A stretch of DNA of 38,352 bases from Candidatus Azambacteria bacterium RIFCSPLOWO2_01_FULL_46_26 (GTDB taxonomy: Bacteria > Patescibacteriota > Minisyncoccia > UBA9936), in contig MEYT01000036.1 of the NCBI GenBank assembly GCA_001774105.1, positions 1 through 38,352 of the forward strand, in the 5' to 3' direction. Numbering within the stretch: the stretch's first letter is position 1; every line of letters begins with the position of its first letter. A program made the translations under genes and the position numbers. Of this stretch, positions 15,970 through 37,233 are shown in pieces. Below the pieces are notes generated by a model. It was not told where the DNA came from, searched no databases, and was given only the letters and a program-made list of their open reading frames with translations.

Positions 15970-17334
15970 TTATTGTAATAACTTCACCGCTTTAACAAAT
16001 TGCTCGCCTCTGTCAAATTCGTTTTGAAATAAATTGAACGAGGCGGCGGCGGGCGATAAAAGAACGGCATCTCTTTTTTGGGCGAGCCGCCGGGCATGAA
16101 TGACGGCCTGTTTCATGTCGGGCGCGTCAATCACGGCTTTTAATTTTAGATTTTTGGTTCGCGCGAGGTGTTTTTGAAATTCAACTTTCATCTTCTCGGT
16201 CGCCGAACCGGGAAGCAAAACAAGAAAATCCGCGTTTTTTAAAATTTCTCCGGCAAAAACCGAGTAATCCAAATTTTTATCCTCGCCGCCGGCGATAAGA
16301 ATTAAACGCCCGTTTTTAAACAACGACCTCGCGGCTTTGATTGCCTCAATCCCCGCGCCGGGATTTGTCGCGCCGGAGTCGTTGATGTAAGTGACGCCTT
16401 TGATTTTCCCGACTTTTTCCAAACGATGCGGTAGTAATTTGAGGCGCGGAATCAGCGATAAAATTTCTTTTCGCGAAATCTTAAAAAGTTTCGCGATCTC
16501 AATCGCGGCCGCGAGATTCGCGGCGTTGTGAGCGAGCGAGAGAAAAGGAATGGATTTTGCGACGATTTTTGAAAAATAAATTTTTTTTGAACGCGCGTTT
16601 TTTGTCAGTTTTTCAAGCAGGCGATTGTCTTCGGGAATTATAAGGAAATCCTCCGGTTTTTGAAATCTAAAAATATTCATTTTTGCTTTGGCGTATTGGG
16701 CAAAAGAAGAGTAGCGGTTCAGGTGGTCAGGAAAAATATTCGTGATTACAGCAATGTGAGGACTTTTTTTCTTTTCGGCCAGCGCCTCAAGCTGAAAACT
16801 GGAAAGCTCCAAAATAACCGGCCCGCCTTGACTCGGCGAGGCAAGCCCGCCTTTTTTGATTTTGGGCAGTACTTCCAAAACCGATTTGCCGATGTTTCCC
16901 CCCAAAACCGCGTTTTTGTATTTTCTTTTCAAAATTTGATGAATCAAAAAAGCGGTCGTTGACTTGCCTTTTGTGCCGGTAACGCCGACGACCGGCGCGG
17001 GACACAAATCAAAAAAAATTCCGACATCCGTCTCAATCGGAACTCCGCTCTTTTTCGCCAATGCCAAAAACTTGGATTCATTCGGAACTCCGGGATTTTT
17101 AATAATCAAATCGGCGTTTTTAAAATCTTCTTGACGATGTTTACCCAAAATATAACGAATCGGCAGCCCTTTCAATCGCCCCAATGACTCTCGTAATTTA
17201 CCCCTTGTCTTTAAATCCGTAACCAAAACCCTTGCCCCGGCCTTGGCAAAAAATTCAGCGGCCCCGACCCCTCCGCCGCTTATTCCAAGCCCCATTATCG
17301 TCACTTTTTTGTTTTTGAAATCAGATTTGACCAT
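15970..17334 (-). CDS. murD: UDP-N-acetylmuramoylalanine--D-glutamate ligase
   Basis: VVGVTGTKGKSTTAFLI; LELSSFQLE; INDSGATNPGAGIEAI; LIAGGEDKNLDYS. Confidence 0.96.
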   Translation of the reverse strand: MVKSDFKNKKVTIMGLGISGGGVGAAEFFAKAGARVLVTDLKTRGKLRESLGRLKGLPIRYILGKHRQEDFKNADLIIKNPGVPNESKFLALAKKSGVPIETDVGIFFDLCPAPVVGVTGTKGKSTTAFLIHQILKRKYKNAVLGGNIGKSVLEVLPKIKKGGLASPSQGGPVILELSSFQLEALAEKKKSPHIAVITNIFPDHLNRYSSFAQYAKAKMNIFRFQKPEDFLIIPEDNRLLEKLTKNARSKKIYFSKIVAKSIPFLSLAHNAANLAAAIEIAKLFKISRKEILSLIPRLKLLPHRLEKVGKIKGVTYINDSGATNPGAGIEAIKAARSLFKNGRLILIAGGEDKNLDYSVFAGEILKNADFLVLLPGSATEKMKVEFQKHLARTKNLKLKAVIDAPDMKQAVIHARRLAQKRDAVLLSPAAASFNLFQNEFDRGEQFVKAVKLLQ

Positions 17335-17411: not shown

Positions 17412-17585
17412 TTATCGATCGGCCAAGGCCAGAACGTAGCCCTTTTCAATCAACTCTTGCAAGCGCCATTTCGGCACGTAATCATAAACCAACTTCTTCT
17501 TTTCCTTGTCCCAGCAAAGAACGTGAACGTAACCTTGTTCTTCGCTAAGTTTTTTGACATCCTCAGGCGTAAAAGCTCTTGCCAC
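17412..17585 (-). CDS. 57-aa unknown protein (GTG start, not in the ORF track)
   Basis: GGAAGGAGGAAAATC-GTG; translation MARAFTPEDVKKLSEEQGYVHVLCWDKEKKKLVYDYVPKWRLQELIEKGYVLALADR. Confidence 0.7.
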   Translation of the reverse strand: MARAFTPEDVKKLSEEQGYVHVLCWDKEKKKLVYDYVPKWRLQELIEKGYVLALADR

Positions 17586-17631: not shown

Positions 17632-17814
17632 CTAGTCCCTTATGGCCACATACATTGTCGCGAGAATAATTCCCAGCGCCATTGAGCCGAGTCCGGCAAG
17701 CGCGAACAAAAAAGGAGAATCGCTCGCGGCTCCGCCCAAAACTATCGTTATCGCGCCCCCGTACACCAAAAGTCTTGAAGACGCCGCAAGCGCCGAATGC
17801 CAAAAATTTCTCAT
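17632..17814 (-). CDS. 60-aa two-TM membrane protein
   Basis: AAGGAGGATGACAA-ATG RBS; two hydrophobic helices. Confidence 0.65.
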   Translation of the reverse strand: MRNFWHSALAASSRLLVYGGAITIVLGGAASDSPFLFALAGLGSMALGIILATMYVAIRD

Positions 17815-17838: not shown

Positions 17839-17925
17839 TCAGAATCCGAGCAGAGAAAGCGCCAAAAGCAAAAAACAAACGAAGTACAAAAACGCCAGCA
17901 CGGAAAGCTTTTCCCATTTTTCCAT
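17839..17925 (-). CDS. 28-aa single-TM micropeptide
   Basis: TAGGAGAGAAA-ATG RBS; MEKWEKLSVLAFLYFVCFLLLALSLLGF. Confidence 0.55.
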   Translation of the reverse strand: MEKWEKLSVLAFLYFVCFLLLALSLLGF

Positions 17926-17933
17926 TTTCTCTC

Positions 17934-18278
17934 CTACTTCTGCAGTTCGCGTATGTAACTTACGATGTCGTGAATCTGATCTTCCGAATAAGTGTCCGCG
18001 TAAGGCGGCATTCCGGTTCCGGGAACTCCTTTGGAAATCTTCTGGAATAACTGCCCGTCGGTCATTTGTTTCACCCGTCCGTCGCGTAAAGACGGAATCA
18101 TCGGCGGCATGCCTTCGCCCTTTGGACGATGACATCCCACACAGCTTTTTCCGTATAAAACCTTTCCGTTCTGTGCGTTGCCGGCGGCATCGGCCAATGT
18201 CGTAAAAATAGTCCCGCAAAAGACAATCAAAACAATACCAATAATAAAAACCGGAATAATCAACAATCTTTCTTTCAT
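17934..18278 (-). CDS. Monoheme c-type cytochrome, exported or membrane-anchored
   Basis: Signal/TM N-terminus; KSCVGCHRPKGEG (CXXCH); GTGMPPY candidate Met ligand; GAGGGGG RBS upstream. Confidence 0.92.
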   Translation of the reverse strand: MKERLLIIPVFIIGIVLIVFCGTIFTTLADAAGNAQNGKVLYGKSCVGCHRPKGEGMPPMIPSLRDGRVKQMTDGQLFQKISKGVPGTGMPPYADTYSEDQIHDIVSYIRELQK

Positions 18279-18410: not shown

Positions 18411-18437
18411 TAAACCCCGCACAATATTTATGCGGGG
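18411..18437 (-). terminator. Terminator downstream of the NHL protein gene
   Basis: Minus strand CCCCGCA-TAAATATTG-TGCGGGG then TTTATTTTT. Confidence 0.75.
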
Positions 18438-18458
18438 CAACAATTTACCACTTTTATT

Positions 18459-19835
18459 TTACTTGACTTTTAACCTTCCGTAACCAAACACCGCCACCTT
18501 GCCGTGCGAAATGCTCTTATCGCCAACCTTTTCAATCGCTCCGCTCTGGCTTGTTATCCAGATCAGATATTCAATCTCAAAATCAGGCGCGGCGAACTTC
18601 TGAAAGTATTTAATGTTTTCCGGGCTGGTGTCAACCGCCATATCGCTCGGGCGCTCCAAATTGGGCACTTTCTGGCCGGATGTTTCGTCAAACACCGGTT
18701 CTCCGCCCCAGACGGCGTAAGGAAAATACACCAGGTCTCCTCTTGCGTTATCTTTCGGCAAGATCTTTTCAGAAAATGTTTTAACGTAAGGCAAGCGGAC
18801 AATGCGCGCGCTCTGCCCGACCAAAGTGATGCCGCTGTCCAAACCGTATATGTCACCGTTGGGAGCCGCGGCCACGGCCAACGCGCTGTCAAAGCCCAAA
18901 ATATTGGGGGCACGCACGCCGAATTGATCAATGAATTTGCCCTCGGAATCGAATTTCAGGATGCGGCCGTTCATTTCCTCACTGATATACAGATTATTTT
19001 GGCCGTCAACGTCAACGTCCGACGGCTGATGGAGCAGAATTTTTCCACCCCGCTTCGTTTGAATGTCTTTTGTCAACGCGTCGGCGGAAGACGCGACTTT
19101 TTGCTGCACTTCCTTTTTTTCCAGAACCTTCTCGCTGCCGCCGTTCTCCGCAAATTCTTTCCAAATTTCCCGCGGCATTCCCACAACCCTTAAAATTTCC
19201 CCGGTGTTTTTATCAAGAATAAAAACGCTTTCCGCGGACGGTTTATTTGACAACCTTTGAAGGCCCTGATCAACCGCGTAAATTTTGTCTCCTTTTATCC
19301 TGATTCTTTGGGGAGCAAAAACGCAATTGATTTTTTTCAGAAGATTCATCTTTTCGTCAAAGACCGCGATTTTTTTCGCCGAAGGATACGTCAAATATAA
19401 AAATCTTCCGTCCGTATCCATTCCAAAAGCGTCGCTGAACTCTTTTCTCTTGACTTCTTCGACTTTCGGCGGATTGGAAAGGAAATCAAACACCCAAACG
19501 GTGTCGCCGTCCAGAATGTACGCCCTTCCCTCCATCACCGCGATTGACGTCGGCGAACCGATAAAACGATCGGGTTCTGTTTTTTCACCGAGCAGAATAT
19601 CGAGCCATTTTGGCGTTTTCTTCGCGGGACCCTTCAAGGTAAAAAGCAATTGCCATCTTTGAATCTGATTAAGCGGCATGTCTTTGAATTGCTCCGGCAG
19701 TTTATGGGGATAAAAACGCTCTTCTTCGTCGGCCTCCGCTCCCCCGTTCGGAATGCTTTTATTTTCGGCGAGGGCATTAGAGCTAAAACAGACGAGCAGT
19801 AAAAAAATCGGAACCAATCGTGTCAATCGCGTCAT
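18459..19835 (-). CDS. Secreted NHL/beta-propeller repeat protein
   Basis: Signal peptide ...VCFSSNALAEN; repeats such as HQPSDVDVDGQNNLYISEEMNGRILKFDSEGKFIDQFG. Confidence 0.8.
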   Translation of the reverse strand: MTRLTRLVPIFLLLVCFSSNALAENKSIPNGGAEADEEERFYPHKLPEQFKDMPLNQIQRWQLLFTLKGPAKKTPKWLDILLGEKTEPDRFIGSPTSIAVMEGRAYILDGDTVWVFDFLSNPPKVEEVKRKEFSDAFGMDTDGRFLYLTYPSAKKIAVFDEKMNLLKKINCVFAPQRIRIKGDKIYAVDQGLQRLSNKPSAESVFILDKNTGEILRVVGMPREIWKEFAENGGSEKVLEKKEVQQKVASSADALTKDIQTKRGGKILLHQPSDVDVDGQNNLYISEEMNGRILKFDSEGKFIDQFGVRAPNILGFDSALAVAAAPNGDIYGLDSGITLVGQSARIVRLPYVKTFSEKILPKDNARGDLVYFPYAVWGGEPVFDETSGQKVPNLERPSDMAVDTSPENIKYFQKFAAPDFEIEYLIWITSQSGAIEKVGDKSISHGKVAVFGYGRLKVK

Positions 19836-19906: not shown

Positions 19907-21982
19907 TTAAAAATGTCTTGCAAGATTAATCCTGAAAAGGAATCCGTCTCTCTCCGTGTTGTTTTCATTGACTTCGTACTTCTCCAAAGCTCTTCTGATA
20001 AAAACATTCACGGACAACTGCCTCACTTCATGAGAAAACGCCAATTGCAAGGCCGAAACGTTTCTTTCGGTTTTGCCTATTGCGGAGGAGTCATAAGTTA
20101 CACCAGCCGTCACTCTCGTCTTGACGGTTTCGAAAATAGCGTTTATTCCGGAATTTAAAAGCCGGATGTCGTTCTGCTCCGTTTTGCGATAGTCAATATC
20201 GCTTCTGCCGCCCTGCCATGTTAAACGCAGTTTTTCATTAACCGGAATCGTGAGCGAGAACCTCGACGTCGCACGGTGAAAAGGGTAATTCAGTTGGGCA
20301 TTATCTTCAAAATCAATGCCGGATGTTATTTCCGCTTTCCGCCACCGCTCAAACGCGTATCTTGAATCCAAGCCGAAACTTCGGTTTTGACCGGAATTAT
20401 CCGATAACTGATTGTAGGCGCTTCCGCTCCCGCCGGTTGTGTTTTGTTCAACGTTTCTTAAACGAAAATACGGCTCAGCCAGTCCGTCAAACAAACTGAT
20501 TCTTGCCGAAACAGTTTGAACGGTATTTCGCGCCAAACCGCGCGGCACAAAATTTTCGTACCCAACAAGCACGGTTTCTCCGTTTAAAATCCGCGTTCCG
20601 GGAATTCTTTCGACATAAGTCGGAGAGCCGAGCTTGTAAATCCGGTAGTCCGCTCCTTCCTGGTAAATTATCGTGCCGGAAATGTCGGTTACCACAACCG
20701 ATTCCGTCGAAATTTCCTGTCCCTCCAGCATAACCGCTTCGTAATCGGAGATTTTATGCATTTCCCCGCTGACAAAAACGTGTTCTTCTCCCGCCCTGAA
20801 CAGATCCGACGATGAAATTTCGTAGCCCAAAGAAAGTTTTCCGTCAAAAGCGGGAAAAATTTGTTTGGCATAGTCAACCCGCGCCAATTTTTCATCCAAG
20901 GTTTGTTCAAAAGCGGAAAATTGTTTTTTTTCGCGCCCAGCTTCCACTTCGGTAAAAAGACTCTCGCCCAATTGATGGGAAAAGCCGCCGCGCGCCTCAT
21001 AAGCGTTTTCTTCTTTTGACAGCCATTCGCTTTCCGCGGCGCCGCCCGAAACTTCCCGGTTTATTTGAGAAGCGCCGAAACTGACAAAGCTGTCCAGTTT
21101 CTGCAATTTGTCGCGAAAAATCCAAAACCGTTGTTCCTGCCTGAGAGCAAAACCGGAATAATCCGAAACGCCGTTCCGCGAATTCAAACTCAAAGACGTC
21201 TTTGTCCTCAAGGTATTGTCCAAAAATTTACCGGCTGCCGTTCCATGGAAATAATGGCTGACGTAATCCGATTCATGCTCTTTTTGGTTTAAAGAAAAGC
21301 GTCTTGAATAGAGCTGTTCGCGAAAATTCAAGTTAACGGAAACTTTTTCCCATTGTTTTTCCGTGTCCGCCTCGAAACTTTTCCGTTCTTCGTGAATGTC
21401 AAAATCATAATCGACAAGCGATTTATTGCCGCGAAAAACATTACTTGCGTCGCTGCCGAAGACGTCAAAACGAAAATTCAAGGGCCAGCCGACAACGGTT
21501 TTTCCCAAATCAAACGTTAAACCGCCGTGTTTTTGGTCGGCCAAATAATCCATGTTAGGCGTATGGCCGATATCCGCGAGGCGTCTTTGAAAAAAGAATG
21601 AACCGCCGTAAGGAGTTTCCTTCAAAAAATATCCGTCAATACCGAAATTTTTCGCGAAATCCGCTCCTTGATATTCCGCGAGGCCCTGACCGAACGCAAT
21701 TCCGCCGCCAACTTTCAGCCCGACAAACCTCTTGTGATAAATGAAAAATCTTTCTTCGATTCTCAACTCTTCATTCATCAGCCGGTACTCGCCGATAATT
21801 TTATTTTTTCCGGAACTAATCTTTTGTAGGTCCTCCCGCAGGGAAAATCCAAGTTCGCCGGCCGGGCGTTCGAAATAAAACGGCCCAAAATTCGCTATCG
21901 GCTTAATTTCGGCGGACTCGCAGATTGGCGTCAGACAAAACAAAATCACGAATCCTATCGCGAACAACAATCTCCTGGTCAT
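19907..21982 (-). CDS. Predicted outer-membrane beta-barrel protein (start MTRRLLFAIGF)
   Basis: AAAGGAG RBS; signal peptide FVILFCLTPICESAE; alternating amphipathic strands; C-terminal ...DGFLFRINLARHF ends in Phe. Confidence 0.75.
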   Translation of the reverse strand: MTRRLLFAIGFVILFCLTPICESAEIKPIANFGPFYFERPAGELGFSLREDLQKISSGKNKIIGEYRLMNEELRIEERFFIYHKRFVGLKVGGGIAFGQGLAEYQGADFAKNFGIDGYFLKETPYGGSFFFQRRLADIGHTPNMDYLADQKHGGLTFDLGKTVVGWPLNFRFDVFGSDASNVFRGNKSLVDYDFDIHEERKSFEADTEKQWEKVSVNLNFREQLYSRRFSLNQKEHESDYVSHYFHGTAAGKFLDNTLRTKTSLSLNSRNGVSDYSGFALRQEQRFWIFRDKLQKLDSFVSFGASQINREVSGGAAESEWLSKEENAYEARGGFSHQLGESLFTEVEAGREKKQFSAFEQTLDEKLARVDYAKQIFPAFDGKLSLGYEISSSDLFRAGEEHVFVSGEMHKISDYEAVMLEGQEISTESVVVTDISGTIIYQEGADYRIYKLGSPTYVERIPGTRILNGETVLVGYENFVPRGLARNTVQTVSARISLFDGLAEPYFRLRNVEQNTTGGSGSAYNQLSDNSGQNRSFGLDSRYAFERWRKAEITSGIDFEDNAQLNYPFHRATSRFSLTIPVNEKLRLTWQGGRSDIDYRKTEQNDIRLLNSGINAIFETVKTRVTAGVTYDSSAIGKTERNVSALQLAFSHEVRQLSVNVFIRRALEKYEVNENNTERDGFLFRINLARHF

Positions 21983-22091
21983 CGCTTTTCTCCTTTTGTA
22001 TTCTATTGTTAAAAAACGTGCGAAATCAATCGCAAATTTTGTCGCGAATACCGAAAAACTGATTCGGAACAAAATTCGAGATTTATTAAGG

Positions 22092-22125
22092 GCCGGAGAA
22101 TGAAATTTTAATTTCATTCTCCGGC
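22092..22125. terminator. Long hairpin between the 7-heme and barrel genes (terminator or mRNA-processing structure)
   Basis: GCCGGAGAATGAAAT-TTTA-ATTTCATTCTCCGGC, 15-bp perfect stem. Confidence 0.6.
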
Positions 22126-22132
22126 TTCTTTA

Positions 22133-22831
22133 TTATTTTTTCGTCAAATGATGGATGTCATTGTGGCAAGCGACGCATTGCGGAAAATTCCACATCGCCT
22201 GTTTTTGAGGCGTATCGTCCGGAGCCGGTTTGTGGCACTGCATGCAAACTTCTTTTTCCGCCATTTTCAAAAACTTTTCTTCTTTGTTGTGCGGCTCGTG
22301 ACAGGTAAGGCATATTCCGGCCTGATTCAATTCTTTGGCTTTTTCTGCCGGAAAATGACTGAAGTCCTTTTTATCCATGTGACACTGCGTGCAAAGATCA
22401 ATATCGGCCTTTTTTAAAAGTTTTTTTTCTTTTGACCGATGAGGTTCGTGGCAGAAACCGCACATTCCCATTTTAACCGGCCAATGCCTTTCTTCTCCTG
22501 TAAACGATTCCTTGTCGTGGCATTGAAAACATGTTTCAGCCAAAGCCGGTCCTATTGTCATCGGCTTATCGTCTTTGTGGCAAGCGTTGCACCATTGCTG
22601 CTTCCATGGCACGTGCCGGCTCTGCCATTTCTCCTCCTCTTTTTGCTTCATCTTCTTGACAATGTCGGCTATATCTTCGGAAGACGAATGGCTTTTTTCT
22701 TTTTCTTTCCGCAATTCTTCTTCCGCGGGCACGCCGTCAATGAAAAAAGAAAGCCATTTCCTTCCGTTTGTCCCAGCGCATCCGTTCACAATAATAACGA
22801 TCAAAAATATCAAAACCGGCCATTTTTTCAT
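22133..22831 (-). CDS. Seven-heme (doubled CXXCH-type) c-type cytochrome, probable lipoprotein
   Basis: CNACH, CFQCH, CGFCH, CTQCH, CLTCH, CMQCH, CVACH; N-terminal VIIVNGCAG lipobox-like. Confidence 0.93.
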   Translation of the reverse strand: MKKWPVLIFLIVIIVNGCAGTNGRKWLSFFIDGVPAEEELRKEKEKSHSSSEDIADIVKKMKQKEEEKWQSRHVPWKQQWCNACHKDDKPMTIGPALAETCFQCHDKESFTGEERHWPVKMGMCGFCHEPHRSKEKKLLKKADIDLCTQCHMDKKDFSHFPAEKAKELNQAGICLTCHEPHNKEEKFLKMAEKEVCMQCHKPAPDDTPQKQAMWNFPQCVACHNDIHHLTKK

Positions 22832-22970: not shown

Positions 22971-22999
22971 ATTATACAGAAAAATCCTATAAAAGTCAA
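22971..22999 (-). promoter_or_regulatory. Promoter of the 7-heme cytochrome
   Basis: Minus strand TTGACT -17 nt- TATAAT. Confidence 0.75.
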
Positions 23000-23087: not shown

Positions 23088-23762
23088 TTATTGATGCAAA
23101 TCCTGCCATTTTCCTTTATGGCAAGCGCCACAAAGAGTGCCGCCTATTCCGTTGCCGTCATCATCAAACGGAAGAGTGAGGTAATGTCCGTAAGGTCCGC
23201 CGTCGCCTTTGTGCATATAGCCGTGGCAAGTGGCGCAAGTCAGAACATTTTTATTGGGGCCTCCCAAATAAAACGTCTCTTGCATCTCCGAGAGAGGCGC
23301 CATTACATCCTGTAAAACCGAAGGCGTTCGGCTGCCGCGCCGAGAGATTAAGTCGTCGGTAATTTCCACGCCGATGGGATGATGGATGTGCCCGTCCGTC
23401 GGATTAATGTACTTTTCCGACAGATGAGAACTGCTTATCCATCTGGGGTTGCCGTGACACTTAAGACAAAATTCGCCGAGCGGATCAAGTGTCGGAGTGG
23501 ACAATATCGTGTAAGACGTATAATTTTGCCAAACTCCGCTTGCGTCAAATTCGCTTGTCGAACGATAAAGCCAGGGGTATCCCGGGAAAATGGTTTTGCC
23601 GTCCTGAAGTCCCGCGTGCTCCGCGTTGTGACAATTCGCGCAAGTAGTGGGGTTGTAAGCCGGATTATAAGTGTGGCCGGCGTCAGCTTCAGGAACAACC
23701 ATCCAAAGCATTACCGCCGTAAGTATTAAAACCGCCGTCGCGCATGCCATTTTCTTTAGCAT
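23088..23762 (-). CDS. Four-heme c-type cytochrome, exported
   Basis: Signal peptide ...VVPEADAGH; CANCH, CLKCH, CATCH, CGACH; AGGGAGGG RBS. Confidence 0.93.
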   Translation of the reverse strand: MLKKMACATAVLILTAVMLWMVVPEADAGHTYNPAYNPTTCANCHNAEHAGLQDGKTIFPGYPWLYRSTSEFDASGVWQNYTSYTILSTPTLDPLGEFCLKCHGNPRWISSSHLSEKYINPTDGHIHHPIGVEITDDLISRRGSRTPSVLQDVMAPLSEMQETFYLGGPNKNVLTCATCHGYMHKGDGGPYGHYLTLPFDDDGNGIGGTLCGACHKGKWQDLHQ

Positions 23763-23963: not shown

Positions 23964-24407
23964 TCAAGGAATAATCACGACAGGAAACTGTCCTTTGCCG
24001 TCTCCCATCCCGGGGGCGTTTTTGGGCATACCGGGCAGGGCGATGCCCCTGACATTGGGTTTATCCCGCAAAAGCTTTTTAATACTTTCCGCGGGGACGT
24101 GCCCCTCAATAATATAGCCGGAAGATGTTATGGCCGTATGACAGCTTTGCAAATTTTGGGGGATATTGTATTGCTTTTTTACCCCCGCCACGTCATCCGT
24201 ATGGATAACATCCGCGTCAAATCCGTTTTCCCGCAAGTAATCAATGTATGAATGACAGCACCCGCAACTGGGTGAAGCATAAACCGTTATTTTTTCAGCC
24301 GCCATTGCTCTGTCAGCGAACGATTCAAGTTTCCAAAAAACTCCCAGCGAAAGTAACACGCCGGCACAAATAATAAATATGACCCAAATTTTTCCCCTAG
24401 CGCCCAT
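23964..24407 (-). CDS. DUF411 family (putative metal-binding) protein
   Basis: ITVYASPSCGCCHSYIDYLRENGF; SCHTAITSSGYIIEGHVPAESIKKLL; IALPGMP. Confidence 0.88.
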   Translation of the reverse strand: MGARGKIWVIFIICAGVLLSLGVFWKLESFADRAMAAEKITVYASPSCGCCHSYIDYLRENGFDADVIHTDDVAGVKKQYNIPQNLQSCHTAITSSGYIIEGHVPAESIKKLLRDKPNVRGIALPGMPKNAPGMGDGKGQFPVVIIP

Positions 24408-24490: not shown

Positions 24491-27043
24491 CTATCCGACA
24501 ATATTAATCAATTTTCCGGGAACAAAAATAATTTTCTTGGCTTCTTTTTCCGCAAGCCATGTCTTAACCTTTTCTCGCCCAAGCGCGAGCCGCGCCGCCT
24601 CTTCCCGAGAAATGCCGGCTGGCGCTTCAAACAGGTCGCGCACTTTGCCGTTGATTTGAACAATCAGAGTAAAAGTTTCTTCTTTAATGAATTTTGGATT
24701 AAATTTCGGCCATTTCGCCAAGTGAACGCTTCCCTTTTCATCCCTTCGACCGCGCTCAGGGCTTGCCGATTGACTCCAAAGTTCTTCGGCTATGTGCGGA
24801 GCAAACGGGGCAAGCAATTTAATTACCAATTTCCAATTTTCAATTTCCAATGATGGTTGTTTTTCCAATTCATTCACTAAAATCATTAAAGAGCTGATCG
24901 CGGTATTATACTGCAAATTTTCAATATCTTCCGTAACTTTTTTGATGGTTTTGTGCAATGCCTTATTTAAGTCATCTTGAGGGCTTTGCCCGAAGGATCT
25001 TTTGAGATTCTTCCCCCGCCTTGGCGGGGTCAGAATGACGGAATGAGTTAATTTCCAAATTCGCTCAAGAAACCTTGTAATACCGCGAATTCCTGTGTCC
25101 CTGAAATCTCCTCCCTGCTCAAACGGCCCCAAAAACATCAAGTACATTCTCAACGTGTCCGCTCCGTAGGCGCGAATATATTCGTCCGGATTGACGACAT
25201 TGCCTTTGGATTTTGACATCTTGGCGCCGTCTTTGATTAAAAGACCATGGGCCCGAAATTTCTTGAACGGCTCTTCAAAATGGATAAAACCCAAATCACG
25301 CAGCGCCATCGCGACAAAGCGGACATATAAAAGATGAAGCACGGCATGTTCGGCGCCGCCGATGTACATATCCACGGGCAACCATTTTCGCGCCAAACGT
25401 GAAAATGCTGAATTTTCAATTTTCAATTTCCAATTTTCAGATGCCATAAGATAACCGAGATAATACCAGGAAGAATCCAAAAACGTGTCGCAGACGTCGG
25501 TTTCGCGGCGCGCCCATGATTTGCATTTTGGACAGCGGACTTTAAAAAATTTTTCCACAATTGCCAGAGGTGACTTTTCCGTTCCGGTCGGCCGGAAATC
25601 TTTAATGTGAGGAAGTTTTACCGGCAAATCCTTTTCCGGAACCGCGTGCCAGCCGGGCATATCTTTTCTTTCTCCTCTTCCCTCATGCCTGCAGGTTTCA
25701 CAAAAAATTAAAGGAATGGGCGCTCCCCAATACCTTTGTCTTGAAATCAGCCAATCGCGCAATCTGAAAGTCGTTTTTTTCTCGGCCAAATCTTTTTTCG
25801 CCAGCCATTCCGCTATCGCATTCTTGGCTTTTTGACAAAACATTCCGGTGAATTCGTTTGAGGCAACCAAGTAACCCTCTTCTTCATATGCCCTCTCAAG
25901 AACCGGGCATTTCGGCTCGGGGTAATTCGGGCAAATTACCATCTTTATGGGCAAGTTAAATTTTTTGGCGAACTCAAAGTCCCTTTGGTCATGCGCCGGA
26001 ACGGCCATAATCGCGCCGGTGCCGTATCCGGCCAAAACATAATCGGCGACAAAAATCGGAATTTCTTCTCCGGTTGCCGGATTTGTCGCTTTGATTCCCT
26101 TAATTTCAACGCCGGTTTTTTCCAGCCCTTCGGCAATCCGTTCAGCTTCTGATTTATTTTTCGCTCCCGCGATATATCTTTTGACTTCTTCCCAATTTTC
26201 AATTTGCAATTTTAAATTTTCAATTTTTGAATGTTCCGGCGCTAAAACAACGTAAGTCGCCCCAAAAAGCGTATCAGCTCGTGTGGTAAAAACCTCAATT
26301 GGAAATTGGAAATTGGGAATTGGAAATTTCACTACTGCTCCTTCCGACTTGCTTATCCAATTCCTTTGGGCGACTTTTATTTTTTCCGACCAGTCGATTT
26401 TTTCAAGATTGTTCAAAAGCCGCTCGGCGTAATCGATAATTTTGAAAAACCACTGCTCAAGCTCTTTTTTAACAACCGCCGTCCCACAGCGCTCACATTC
26501 GCCGGCGATGACCTGCTCGTCGGCAAGCACGGTTTTGCACGACGGACACCAATTGACCGCCTGTTTCTTGCGATACGCCAGTCCGCTCTTAAACATCTGG
26601 ACGAAAATCCACTGGGTCCATTTGTAATATTCCGGGTCGTACGTTTCAAGCCGCTCCTCCCACGCGAAACCGTTGCCGATCATCCGAAGCTGGCGGTAAA
26701 AATTTTTCTCGGAGATTTTCGCCTGATCCGCCGGGTGTTTTCCGATTTTTAGGGCGTAATTTTCCGAATGGATTCCGAAGCCGTCAAGGCCGATCGGCTC
26801 AAACACGTCATGCCCCTGCATTCTTTTGAAACGGCCGTAAATATCCGCGCCGACAAAAGCGTACATATTGCCGACATGCAAACCCTCGGCCGAAGGATAC
26901 GGAAACATCATTAAATTATAAAAAGGCCGTTTTAATTTTTTCTTGCCCCGAGCTTGTCGAGGGGTGAAGTTCGGCTCGTACACGCGCTTCTTTTGCCAAA
27001 TCTTCTGCCACTTCTTTTCAATTTTTTGAGGATTATACTTCAT
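24491..27043 (-). CDS. leuS: Leucyl-tRNA synthetase carrying multiple in-frame repeat insertions
   Basis: MFPYPSAEGLHVGN; GLDGFGIHSENYA; FTTRADTLFGATYVVLAPEH; KMSKSKGNVVNP. Confidence 0.97.
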   Translation of the reverse strand: MKYNPQKIEKKWQKIWQKKRVYEPNFTPRQARGKKKLKRPFYNLMMFPYPSAEGLHVGNMYAFVGADIYGRFKRMQGHDVFEPIGLDGFGIHSENYALKIGKHPADQAKISEKNFYRQLRMIGNGFAWEERLETYDPEYYKWTQWIFVQMFKSGLAYRKKQAVNWCPSCKTVLADEQVIAGECERCGTAVVKKELEQWFFKIIDYAERLLNNLEKIDWSEKIKVAQRNWISKSEGAVVKFPIPNFQFPIEVFTTRADTLFGATYVVLAPEHSKIENLKLQIENWEEVKRYIAGAKNKSEAERIAEGLEKTGVEIKGIKATNPATGEEIPIFVADYVLAGYGTGAIMAVPAHDQRDFEFAKKFNLPIKMVICPNYPEPKCPVLERAYEEEGYLVASNEFTGMFCQKAKNAIAEWLAKKDLAEKKTTFRLRDWLISRQRYWGAPIPLIFCETCRHEGRGERKDMPGWHAVPEKDLPVKLPHIKDFRPTGTEKSPLAIVEKFFKVRCPKCKSWARRETDVCDTFLDSSWYYLGYLMASENWKLKIENSAFSRLARKWLPVDMYIGGAEHAVLHLLYVRFVAMALRDLGFIHFEEPFKKFRAHGLLIKDGAKMSKSKGNVVNPDEYIRAYGADTLRMYLMFLGPFEQGGDFRDTGIRGITRFLERIWKLTHSVILTPPRRGKNLKRSFGQSPQDDLNKALHKTIKKVTEDIENLQYNTAISSLMILVNELEKQPSLEIENWKLVIKLLAPFAPHIAEELWSQSASPERGRRDEKGSVHLAKWPKFNPKFIKEETFTLIVQINGKVRDLFEAPAGISREEAARLALGREKVKTWLAEKEAKKIIFVPGKLINIVG
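24825..24850. repeat. In-frame heptamer repeat insert in leuS (D)
   Basis: Minus strand ATTGGAA ATTGAAA ATTGGAA; encodes LEIENWKLV. Confidence 0.85.
24971..25039. repeat. 69-bp cloverleaf palindromic element inserted in frame in leuS
   Basis: Outer arms GTCATCTTGA / TCAGAATGAC, internal hairpins GGGCTTTGCCC, GAAGGATC..GATTCTTC and CCCCGCCTTGGCGGGG; exactly 23 codons. Confidence 0.85.
25411..25439. repeat. In-frame heptamer repeat insert in leuS (C)
   Basis: Minus strand ATTGGAA ATTGAAA ATTGAAA; encodes ENWKLKIENS. Confidence 0.85.
26193..26228. repeat. In-frame heptamer repeat insert in leuS (B)
   Basis: Minus strand ATTGAAA ATTTAAA ATTGCAA ATTGAAA; encodes KIENLKLQIEN. Confidence 0.85.
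26295..26330. repeat. In-frame heptamer repeat insert in leuS (A), opposite orientation
   Basis: Minus strand AATTCCC AATTTCC AATTTCC; encodes FPIPNFQFPI. Confidence 0.85.
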
Positions 27044-35997: not shown

Positions 35998-37233
35998 ATG
36001 TGTGAAATGAAGAAATATGCCGTCATTTTTATTTTCATTTTTCTTTTAGTCGCGGGCGCGTGGCTTGGATATTTTTATTGGCAAAATTTGCGAGGGTTAG
36101 GGCCGGCGTTGAAACCGCCGCCCGAAGATATTGCCAAACTCCTGCCGCCTGAAAAATCGGCACAAGTTCCGCCGGCAATAAACGAAACCGAATTTCCTTT
36201 AAAATTGCCGGCTGGTTTTAAAATCTCCATTTTCGCCAAAGGCCTCGAAAGTCCCAGAGTTATGACGTATGACCCGGCGGGAAATATCGTCGTGAGCATT
36301 CCGGCGCAGGGAAAAGTCGTCGCCTTGCCGGACAAAAATAGCGACGGCGTTGCCGACGAAGTTGTTACTGTAATTGACGGCCTGAACCGGCCGCACGGCT
36401 TGGCAACGCGATGCACTGAAAAATGCGAATTTTTTATTGCGGAATCAAACCAAGTGGCCTACTACGACTATAATACAAAAAATTTAAAAACGTTTAACAA
36501 AAGAAAAATTATTGACTTGCCGAGCGGCGGCAACCACATCACAAGAACTATTCTTTTCATGCCAAGCCCGAATGACCATAAACTTTTAACTTCCGTCGGC
36601 TCAACCTGCAATGTTTGTGAAGAAAATGACTGGCTAAGGGCGAAAATTTTAATTTCAAACGCCGACGGCGGCGATTTGAAAACTTTCGCGTCCGGACTTC
36701 GCAATTCCGTGTTTATGACCATTCATCCGGTAACCGGAAAAATCTGGGCAACGGAAATGGGGCGCGATTTATTGGGCGATAATTTGCCGCCGGATGAAAT
36801 AAACATTGTTGAAGAAGGTAAAGATTACGGTTGGCCCTATTTTTACGGAAAAGACATCAGAGACGCGGCGTTTGAACCGGATGTTATGTTTGAACAAAAT
36901 CCCGATCGCTTCGGCAGTCACATTGACATACCGGCGCATTCCGCGCCTCTCGGCCTCGCGTTCATTCCCGAGGAAGGATGGCCGCAGGAGTATTGGCACA
37001 ACCTGCTTGTCGCCTACCACGGCTCATGGAACAGAACCGTTCCGACCGGCTACAAAATCGTCCGTTACAAATTAGACGCGCAAGGCAACTATTTAGGAGA
37101 AGAAGATTTTATTTCCGGCTGGCTCACGAACGAGGGCGCGCTCGGAAGGCCGGTTGACATCCTTGTCCAACCCGGCGGCATTATTTATGTCTCGGACGAC
37201 AAAGCCGGAGTGATTTACAAAATCACGCGCTAA
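35998..37233 (+). CDS. Membrane-anchored PQQ-type sugar (sorbosone) dehydrogenase family protein
   Basis: FAKGLESPRVMTYDPAGNIVVSIP; GLRNSVFMTIHPVTGKIWATEMGRDLLGDNLPPDEIN; YGWPYFYG; HGSWNRTVPTGYKIV. Confidence 0.88.
   Translation: MCEMKKYAVIFIFIFLLVAGAWLGYFYWQNLRGLGPALKPPPEDIAKLLPPEKSAQVPPAINETEFPLKLPAGFKISIFAKGLESPRVMTYDPAGNIVVSIPAQGKVVALPDKNSDGVADEVVTVIDGLNRPHGLATRCTEKCEFFIAESNQVAYYDYNTKNLKTFNKRKIIDLPSGGNHITRTILFMPSPNDHKLLTSVGSTCNVCEENDWLRAKILISNADGGDLKTFASGLRNSVFMTIHPVTGKIWATEMGRDLLGDNLPPDEINIVEEGKDYGWPYFYGKDIRDAAFEPDVMFEQNPDRFGSHIDIPAHSAPLGLAFIPEEGWPQEYWHNLLVAYHGSWNRTVPTGYKIVRYKLDAQGNYLGEEDFISGWLTNEGALGRPVDILVQPGGIIYVSDDKAGVIYKITR

Follow-up and report, generated by a model that had tools for sequence, protein, structure and literature searches.

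A predicted beta-barrel protein in a multihaem cytochrome gene cluster of a Parcubacterium: a candidate porin-cytochrome conduit of a rare type

The gene cluster and the barrel candidate

The window, by which we refer to the whole stretch of 38,352 nucleotides analysed here, is the entire contig C36 of a 727-kb genome (Candidatus Azambacteria bacterium RIFCSPLOWO2_01_FULL_46_26) that is 94% complete. Read along the minus strand from 24407 to 17412, a cluster of genes encodes a DUF411 protein, a tetrahaem cytochrome, a heptahaem lipoprotein, the predicted beta-barrel protein, an NHL-repeat protein, a monohaem cytochrome c and three small ORFs. Upstream of the genes of the cluster are sequences resembling ribosome-binding sites.

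Counted from the first ATG, the longest ORF of the barrel candidate spans 19907–22117 (minus strand). The ATG at 21982 has a ribosome-binding-like AAGGAG upstream and yields a protein of 691 aa (19907–21982, minus strand), in agreement with the approximately 690 aa, the signal peptide and the terminal Phe that a sequence-only reading of this DNA had described. Its N-terminus is MTRRLLFAIGFVILFCLTPICESA and its C-terminus GFLFRINLARHF. The mature protein contains no Cys, and no membrane helix follows the signal (maximum of 0.83 on the Kyte-Doolittle scale in a 19-residue window). Strand character was assessed by an ad hoc statistic, the count of alternating hydrophobic/polar 9-residue segments in comparison to 500 shuffles of the same protein. 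We found 35 such segments against 24.3 ± 3.5 in the shuffled sequences, a value reached by a single shuffle. For the homologue from the second carrier genome described below the count was 33 against 24.8 ± 3.2 (reached by 4 of 500 shuffles), and five soluble proteins from the window, used as controls, showed no excess. The excess is higher than chance and, as far as such a count can tell, reflects amphipathic strand character along the whole length while falling short of proving a closed barrel; it bears out the many amphipathic strands proposed earlier.

Neither the barrel candidate nor its homologue matched the barrel families of Pfam and NCBIfam, including the MtrB-type family, at E values up to 10, and a search of the PDB sequences with the barrel profile gave no match. 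AlphaFold2 on the alignment of the two barrel sequences returned a mean pLDDT of 26 and no usable model. Structure prediction, proposed as a check of the beta-barrel assignment, hence yielded neither a barrel nor a soluble fold, and the assignment draws on the barrel-like statistics and on the porin-cytochrome setting. The unusual insert pointed out in the sequence-only reading is present at about residues 428–477; together with its margins (residues 405–491; 20510–20770, minus strand) it shares 46% identity with the homologue across 87 residues. The suggestion that it forms a surface beta-sandwich loop found no support: modelled alone in AlphaFold2 it reached a pLDDT of 35, and PDB sequences gave no credible match to it. 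We ascribe the failure of AlphaFold on both barrel and insert to the small number of homologues.

It is the cytochrome cluster, absent from the sequence-only reading, that gives the barrel protein its meaning. Directly upstream of the barrel gene lies a gene for a c-type cytochrome with a lipoprotein signal (VNGC) and seven CXXCH motifs, compared to a mean of 0.06 in shuffled sequences (22133–22831, minus strand). It belongs to the paired-CXXCH family (PF09699, 8e-27) and is related to the MtrA/DmsE decahaem cytochromes, scoring 8e-19 and 68 bits with the profile of the DmsE/MtrA-type decahaem (TIGR03508), which is below the curated cut-off of 192 bits. Its counterpart in the second carrier is 39% identical, has 10 CXXCH motifs and scores 3e-27 and 96 bits, again below the cut-off. 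Among PDB chains, both proteins match 6r2q chain A best (3e-10 for the heptahaem lipoprotein, 1e-12 for the counterpart), which we take to be MtrA, judging from its chain length and the alignment of the haem sites. In the PDB copy used this chain is named 'Cystathionine beta-synthase', apparently a mislabel. Entry 6R2Q is the crystal structure of MtrCAB from Shewanella baltica, where the 26-strand MtrB barrel encloses MtrA and its 10 haems (PMC7198977).

Further upstream a tetrahaem c-type cytochrome with a signal peptide is encoded (23088–23762, minus strand; 4 CXXCH against a shuffle mean of 0.02; 52% identical to its counterpart in the second carrier). The barrel gene is followed by genes for a secreted NHL-repeat beta-propeller protein (18459–19835, minus strand; PF01436 2e-4; PDB NHL structures with E values down to 7e-11; 47% identical to its counterpart) and for a monohaem cytochrome c of the cbb3 subunit III or class I type with a signal anchor (17934–18278, minus strand; PF13442 2e-13, PF00034 3e-12). 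Downstream of the latter are two small membrane ORFs of 28 aa (17839–17925) and 60 aa (17632–17814) and a small ORF of 57 aa with a GTG start (17412–17585), all on the minus strand; the 60-aa and 57-aa products have no family match. At the other end of the cluster, the thioredoxin-like secreted DUF411 protein (23964–24407, minus strand; PF04214 2e-23) may or may not belong to the same system. Its CGCCH motif, a CXXCH at residue 48, lies in the glutaredoxin-like part of the protein. The protein, encoded beside the cytochromes, could have a role in thiol or copper chemistry.

Matches to consensus sequences place promoter-like sites before the DUF411, heptahaem and monohaem genes and terminator-like hairpins after the DUF411, tetrahaem and NHL genes. 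The promoter-like site upstream of the heptahaem, barrel and NHL genes is TTGACT-17-TATAAT at 22971–22999, and the terminator-like hairpin after the NHL gene is located at 18414–18438 (both minus strand, consensus matches only). This layout suggests that the barrel gene probably shares a transcript with the heptahaem cytochrome and NHL genes. In addition we noticed a perfect-looking hairpin of 17 pairs at 22090–22127 between the heptahaem and barrel genes, which might control expression.

The second carrier and the genomic context

Among 387 genomes of the class, one other carrier was found (E 1e-148), with the GTDB record name Parcubacteria GW2011_GWA2_38_13b (LBUF02000001.1). Through the scaffold name GWA2_OD1-rel_38_13_curated this genome corresponds to 'Ca. 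Parcunitrobacter nitroensis' (PMC5220378). The two barrel homologues are 40% identical, and both have 691 aa and keep the C-terminal Phe. The genes for barrel, NHL protein, tetrahaem and 7/10-haem cytochrome are linked in GWA2_38_13b too, amid different surroundings: there they adjoin genes for cytochrome b/Rieske, NrfH-like and 9-haem cytochromes. With sequence identities of 39–52%, we regard the core cluster of cytochromes, barrel and NHL protein as an independent second case. On this scaffold a decahaem and two tetrahaem cytochromes, cytochrome b/Rieske, an HAO-like protein and a V-type ATPase have been described (PMC5220378). The main text of that study treats the cytochromes; the terms 'porin' and 'outer membrane' are absent from it. 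Its authors did not find lpxC and kdsA and called the envelope unclear (PMC5220378).

Upstream of the decahaem gene of GWA2_38_13b (L005:7032–8609, plus strand) we noticed two secreted proteins that by eye resemble SurA- and Skp-type chaperones. If truly of these types, they would be barrel chaperones adjoining the barrel. A Pfam search matched them to neither SurA nor OmpH, no convincing hit came from the PDB, and they were dropped as evidence.

The barrel family is rare. A search of genome contigs with the single barrel protein retrieved no relatives, and with the barrel alignment it retrieved GWA2_38_13b only. GWA2_38_13b was likewise the only carrier within its own order and in a second draw from the class, and the window's own genome was the only one in a draw of 384 genomes from the phylum. 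No relatives of the barrel were found in viral contigs or plasmids.

Since the source genome is a metagenome bin and the cluster is confined to 2 of 387 class genomes including the window's own, the cytochrome-barrel stretch might stem from a diderm and have been joined to a CPR contig by contamination or misassembly. However, the neighboring genes on both sides are Parcubacteria-like. On the left, MurD (15970–17334, minus strand) reaches 51% identity and 394 bits within the class, whereas the top-scoring PDB chain has 188 bits. On the right, LeuRS (24491–27043, minus strand) reaches 63% and 1129 bits within the class, compared to 723 bits for the Thermus LeuRS in the PDB. The order GlyRS-M16-AI2E-MetRS-TatD-LeuRS of the right flank is common to two other class genomes, and the G+C content is even along the contig. 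Simple misbinning of the contig was rejected because both flanks are Parcubacteria-like. Furthermore, the contig that carries the homologous cluster is 181 kb long and belongs to a curated genome, for which read pairs and gyrA served to check the assembly (PMC5220378). As the cluster and its two flanks share one 38-kb contig, we consider contamination or misassembly extremely improbable. The assignment to the CPR, on which the sequence-only reading depended, was confirmed by MurD, LeuRS, the LeuRS tree, the synteny and the homologous cluster in the same class.

In the LeuRS tree both carriers fall into one well-supported clade of nine, where they occupy early branches; the remaining members include non-carriers. 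This arrangement fits an old cluster that was lost in many lineages as well as an old transfer, between which a single-gene tree does not decide. A related possibility is that the cluster was acquired from a diderm and persists as a relic without function. The searches for haem-attachment and barrel-assembly machinery described below, which found neither, and the presence of one paired-CXXCH locus in the window genome would fit this explanation. However, the frames are all intact in two deeply separate genomes at 39–52% identity, which argues for long selection, and the genes are preceded by ribosome-binding-like sites. We therefore judge a relic to be quite improbable.

Comparison with known conduits

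The MtrAB/MtrCAB systems (Shewanella; MtoAB, PioAB, DmsE-type) resemble the cluster in that a barrel candidate of similar size adjoins a paired-CXXCH multihaem cytochrome with MtrA as its best match in the PDB, and the cytochrome of GWA2_38_13b shares with MtrA the number of 10 haems. In contrast to these systems, the cytochrome of the window is a 7-haem lipoprotein below the DmsE-family cut-off, the barrel has no MtrB-type Pfam match, the cluster contains an NHL protein and no MtrC, and the host has no detectable Omp85. The most similar inventory is that of the undecahaem electron transfer system Uet of Tenderiales and Gallionella, which comprises a multihaem UetJ with doubled CXXCH, a tetrahaem UetA, a barrel UetC and the NHL proteins UetHI (PMC10734462). 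UetJ has 11–12 haems, however, and Uet includes distinct trihaem proteins as well as a peptidyl-prolyl isomerase, the comparison being one of inventory only (PMC10734462).

The respiratory cluster of 'Ca. Parcunitrobacter nitroensis' shares the homologous barrel, NHL protein, tetrahaem cytochrome and 7/10-haem lipoprotein. It differs in its adjoining cytochrome b/Rieske, NrfH-like and 9-haem cytochromes, whereas no cytochrome b was found in the window genome. The Omb/Oma/Omc and Ext systems of Geobacter are alike in design, in that one cluster encodes a barrel along with multihaem cytochromes of the periplasm and the cell surface (PMC12133095), but no family match ties them to the cluster of the window. 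By analogy of design the cluster resembles the Mtr, Pcc and Uet conduits. We assigned it to none of them because the barrel fits no family profile, the cytochrome scores too low for the DmsE family and the search for Omp85 in the host was negative.

Assembly machinery, envelope and the proposed conduit

Porin-cytochrome conduits combine an outer-membrane barrel of about 20–28 strands, an adjacent multihaem cytochrome able to fill it and a second multihaem cytochrome on its outer or inner face with a host that has an outer membrane, Omp85/Bam and a cytochrome c maturation system. As judged from its motifs and its MtrA match, the heptahaem lipoprotein would be the filling cytochrome, and the tetrahaem cytochrome is a candidate for the second one; the searches of the host were negative. 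Omp85/BamA, proposed earlier as a genome-wide check, was detected in neither carrier genome at E values up to 10, whereas the genomes of E. coli, Caulobacter and other diderms, used as controls, do match. Likewise PF01578, the cytochrome-c assembly family covering the core of CcsA, CcmC and CcmF, had no match in either carrier, although both genomes carry multihaem c-type cytochromes and GWA2_38_13b a whole respiratory set. As both genomes are 94% complete, a chance absence of both families from both is unlikely; divergent forms of either could escape the profile search. In the window genome the paired-CXXCH family is represented at this locus only. If the cluster does encode a conduit, barrel insertion and haem attachment would require unrecognised or borrowed machinery.

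CPR bacteria are generally taken to have no outer membrane, and it has been argued that their secretion systems are those of cells with one membrane (PMC12102498). The chief alternative to a conduit, which we hold to be unlikely but deserving serious attention, is in line with such an envelope: the cell would have one membrane, and the 691-aa protein, secreted and rich in beta structure, would serve in its wall or S-layer as a scaffold that keeps the cytochromes at the surface. Cytochromes that span the wall occur in bacteria with a single membrane, for example in Gram-positives of the Thermincola type, which counts in favor of this arrangement, as does the NHL propeller in the cluster. The negative search for Bam machinery, the missing barrel-family match and the fact that no LPS genes were reported in the relative (PMC5220378) point in the same direction. 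The amphipathic alternation over the whole length, the C-terminal Phe and the 691 aa of both homologues, and the MtrA-like partner argue against a wall scaffold.

A different location of the barrel would account for the absent Omp85. A life on other cells is widely inferred for CPR bacteria (PMC12102498), and the barrel could be assembled in the outer membrane of an attached partner cell that supplies Bam, so that the conduit joins both cells. This would require the export of a barrel and a lipoprotein into another cell. Nothing pointing to such export was found, the parts bear ordinary Sec and lipoprotein signals, and we regard this location as very improbable.

The explanation that we favor, with somewhat better than even confidence, is that the cluster encodes a rare porin-cytochrome electron conduit of a new type in a Parcubacterium. 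It is suggested by the barrel-like statistics of both homologues, which the soluble controls do not share, by the lack of a membrane helix after the signal, by haem motifs far above chance, by the MtrA-like partner, by the linkage in a second genome and by the Parcubacteria-like flanks. It is weakened by the absence of Omp85/BamA and PF01578 matches in both genomes and of reported lpxC and kdsA in the relative (PMC5220378), by a barrel with neither a known family nor an AlphaFold model, by the seven haems of the window copy and by the missing cytochrome b.

From these features we infer the following arrangement. The 691-aa protein would fold into a large beta-barrel that serves as an insulating sheath within an outer lipid layer around the cell. 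The wire would be the lipoprotein with its 7 haems (10 in GWA2_38_13b), located in or against the barrel, with the tetrahaem cytochrome and the NHL propeller docked on one face. The monohaem cytochrome c would act as an electron shuttle linking the conduit to the cytoplasmic membrane. In this way electrons could cross the envelope in either direction, the counterpart outside being an acceptor, a donor or a partner cell.

A conduit would imply an unrecognised outer layer or another insertion site in this CPR lineage, i.e. either an outer layer whose assembly machinery is not yet known or a barrel-like protein working somewhere new. Such a cluster, conserved in two separate Parcubacteria orders that have no detectable Omp85, makes the question of the CPR envelope directly testable, and it suggests that some CPR bacteria may swap electrons with minerals or partner cells. 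As a more far-reaching version, which we consider rather doubtful, some early-branching Parcubacteria would possess a genuine outer layer and a beta-barrel conduit, and would insert barrels and attach haem by machinery that has no relation to Omp85 or to the CcsA/CcmC/CcmF-type systems. If true, the views that CPR have one membrane and that all barrels need Omp85 would both need exceptions.

Apart from the cluster, we noticed a secreted propeller protein similar to glucose/sorbosone dehydrogenases (PQQ-type) at 35998–37233 (plus strand) of the window. It is 48% identical to a copy in another genome of the class and may represent a periplasmic-type oxidoreductase in CPR.
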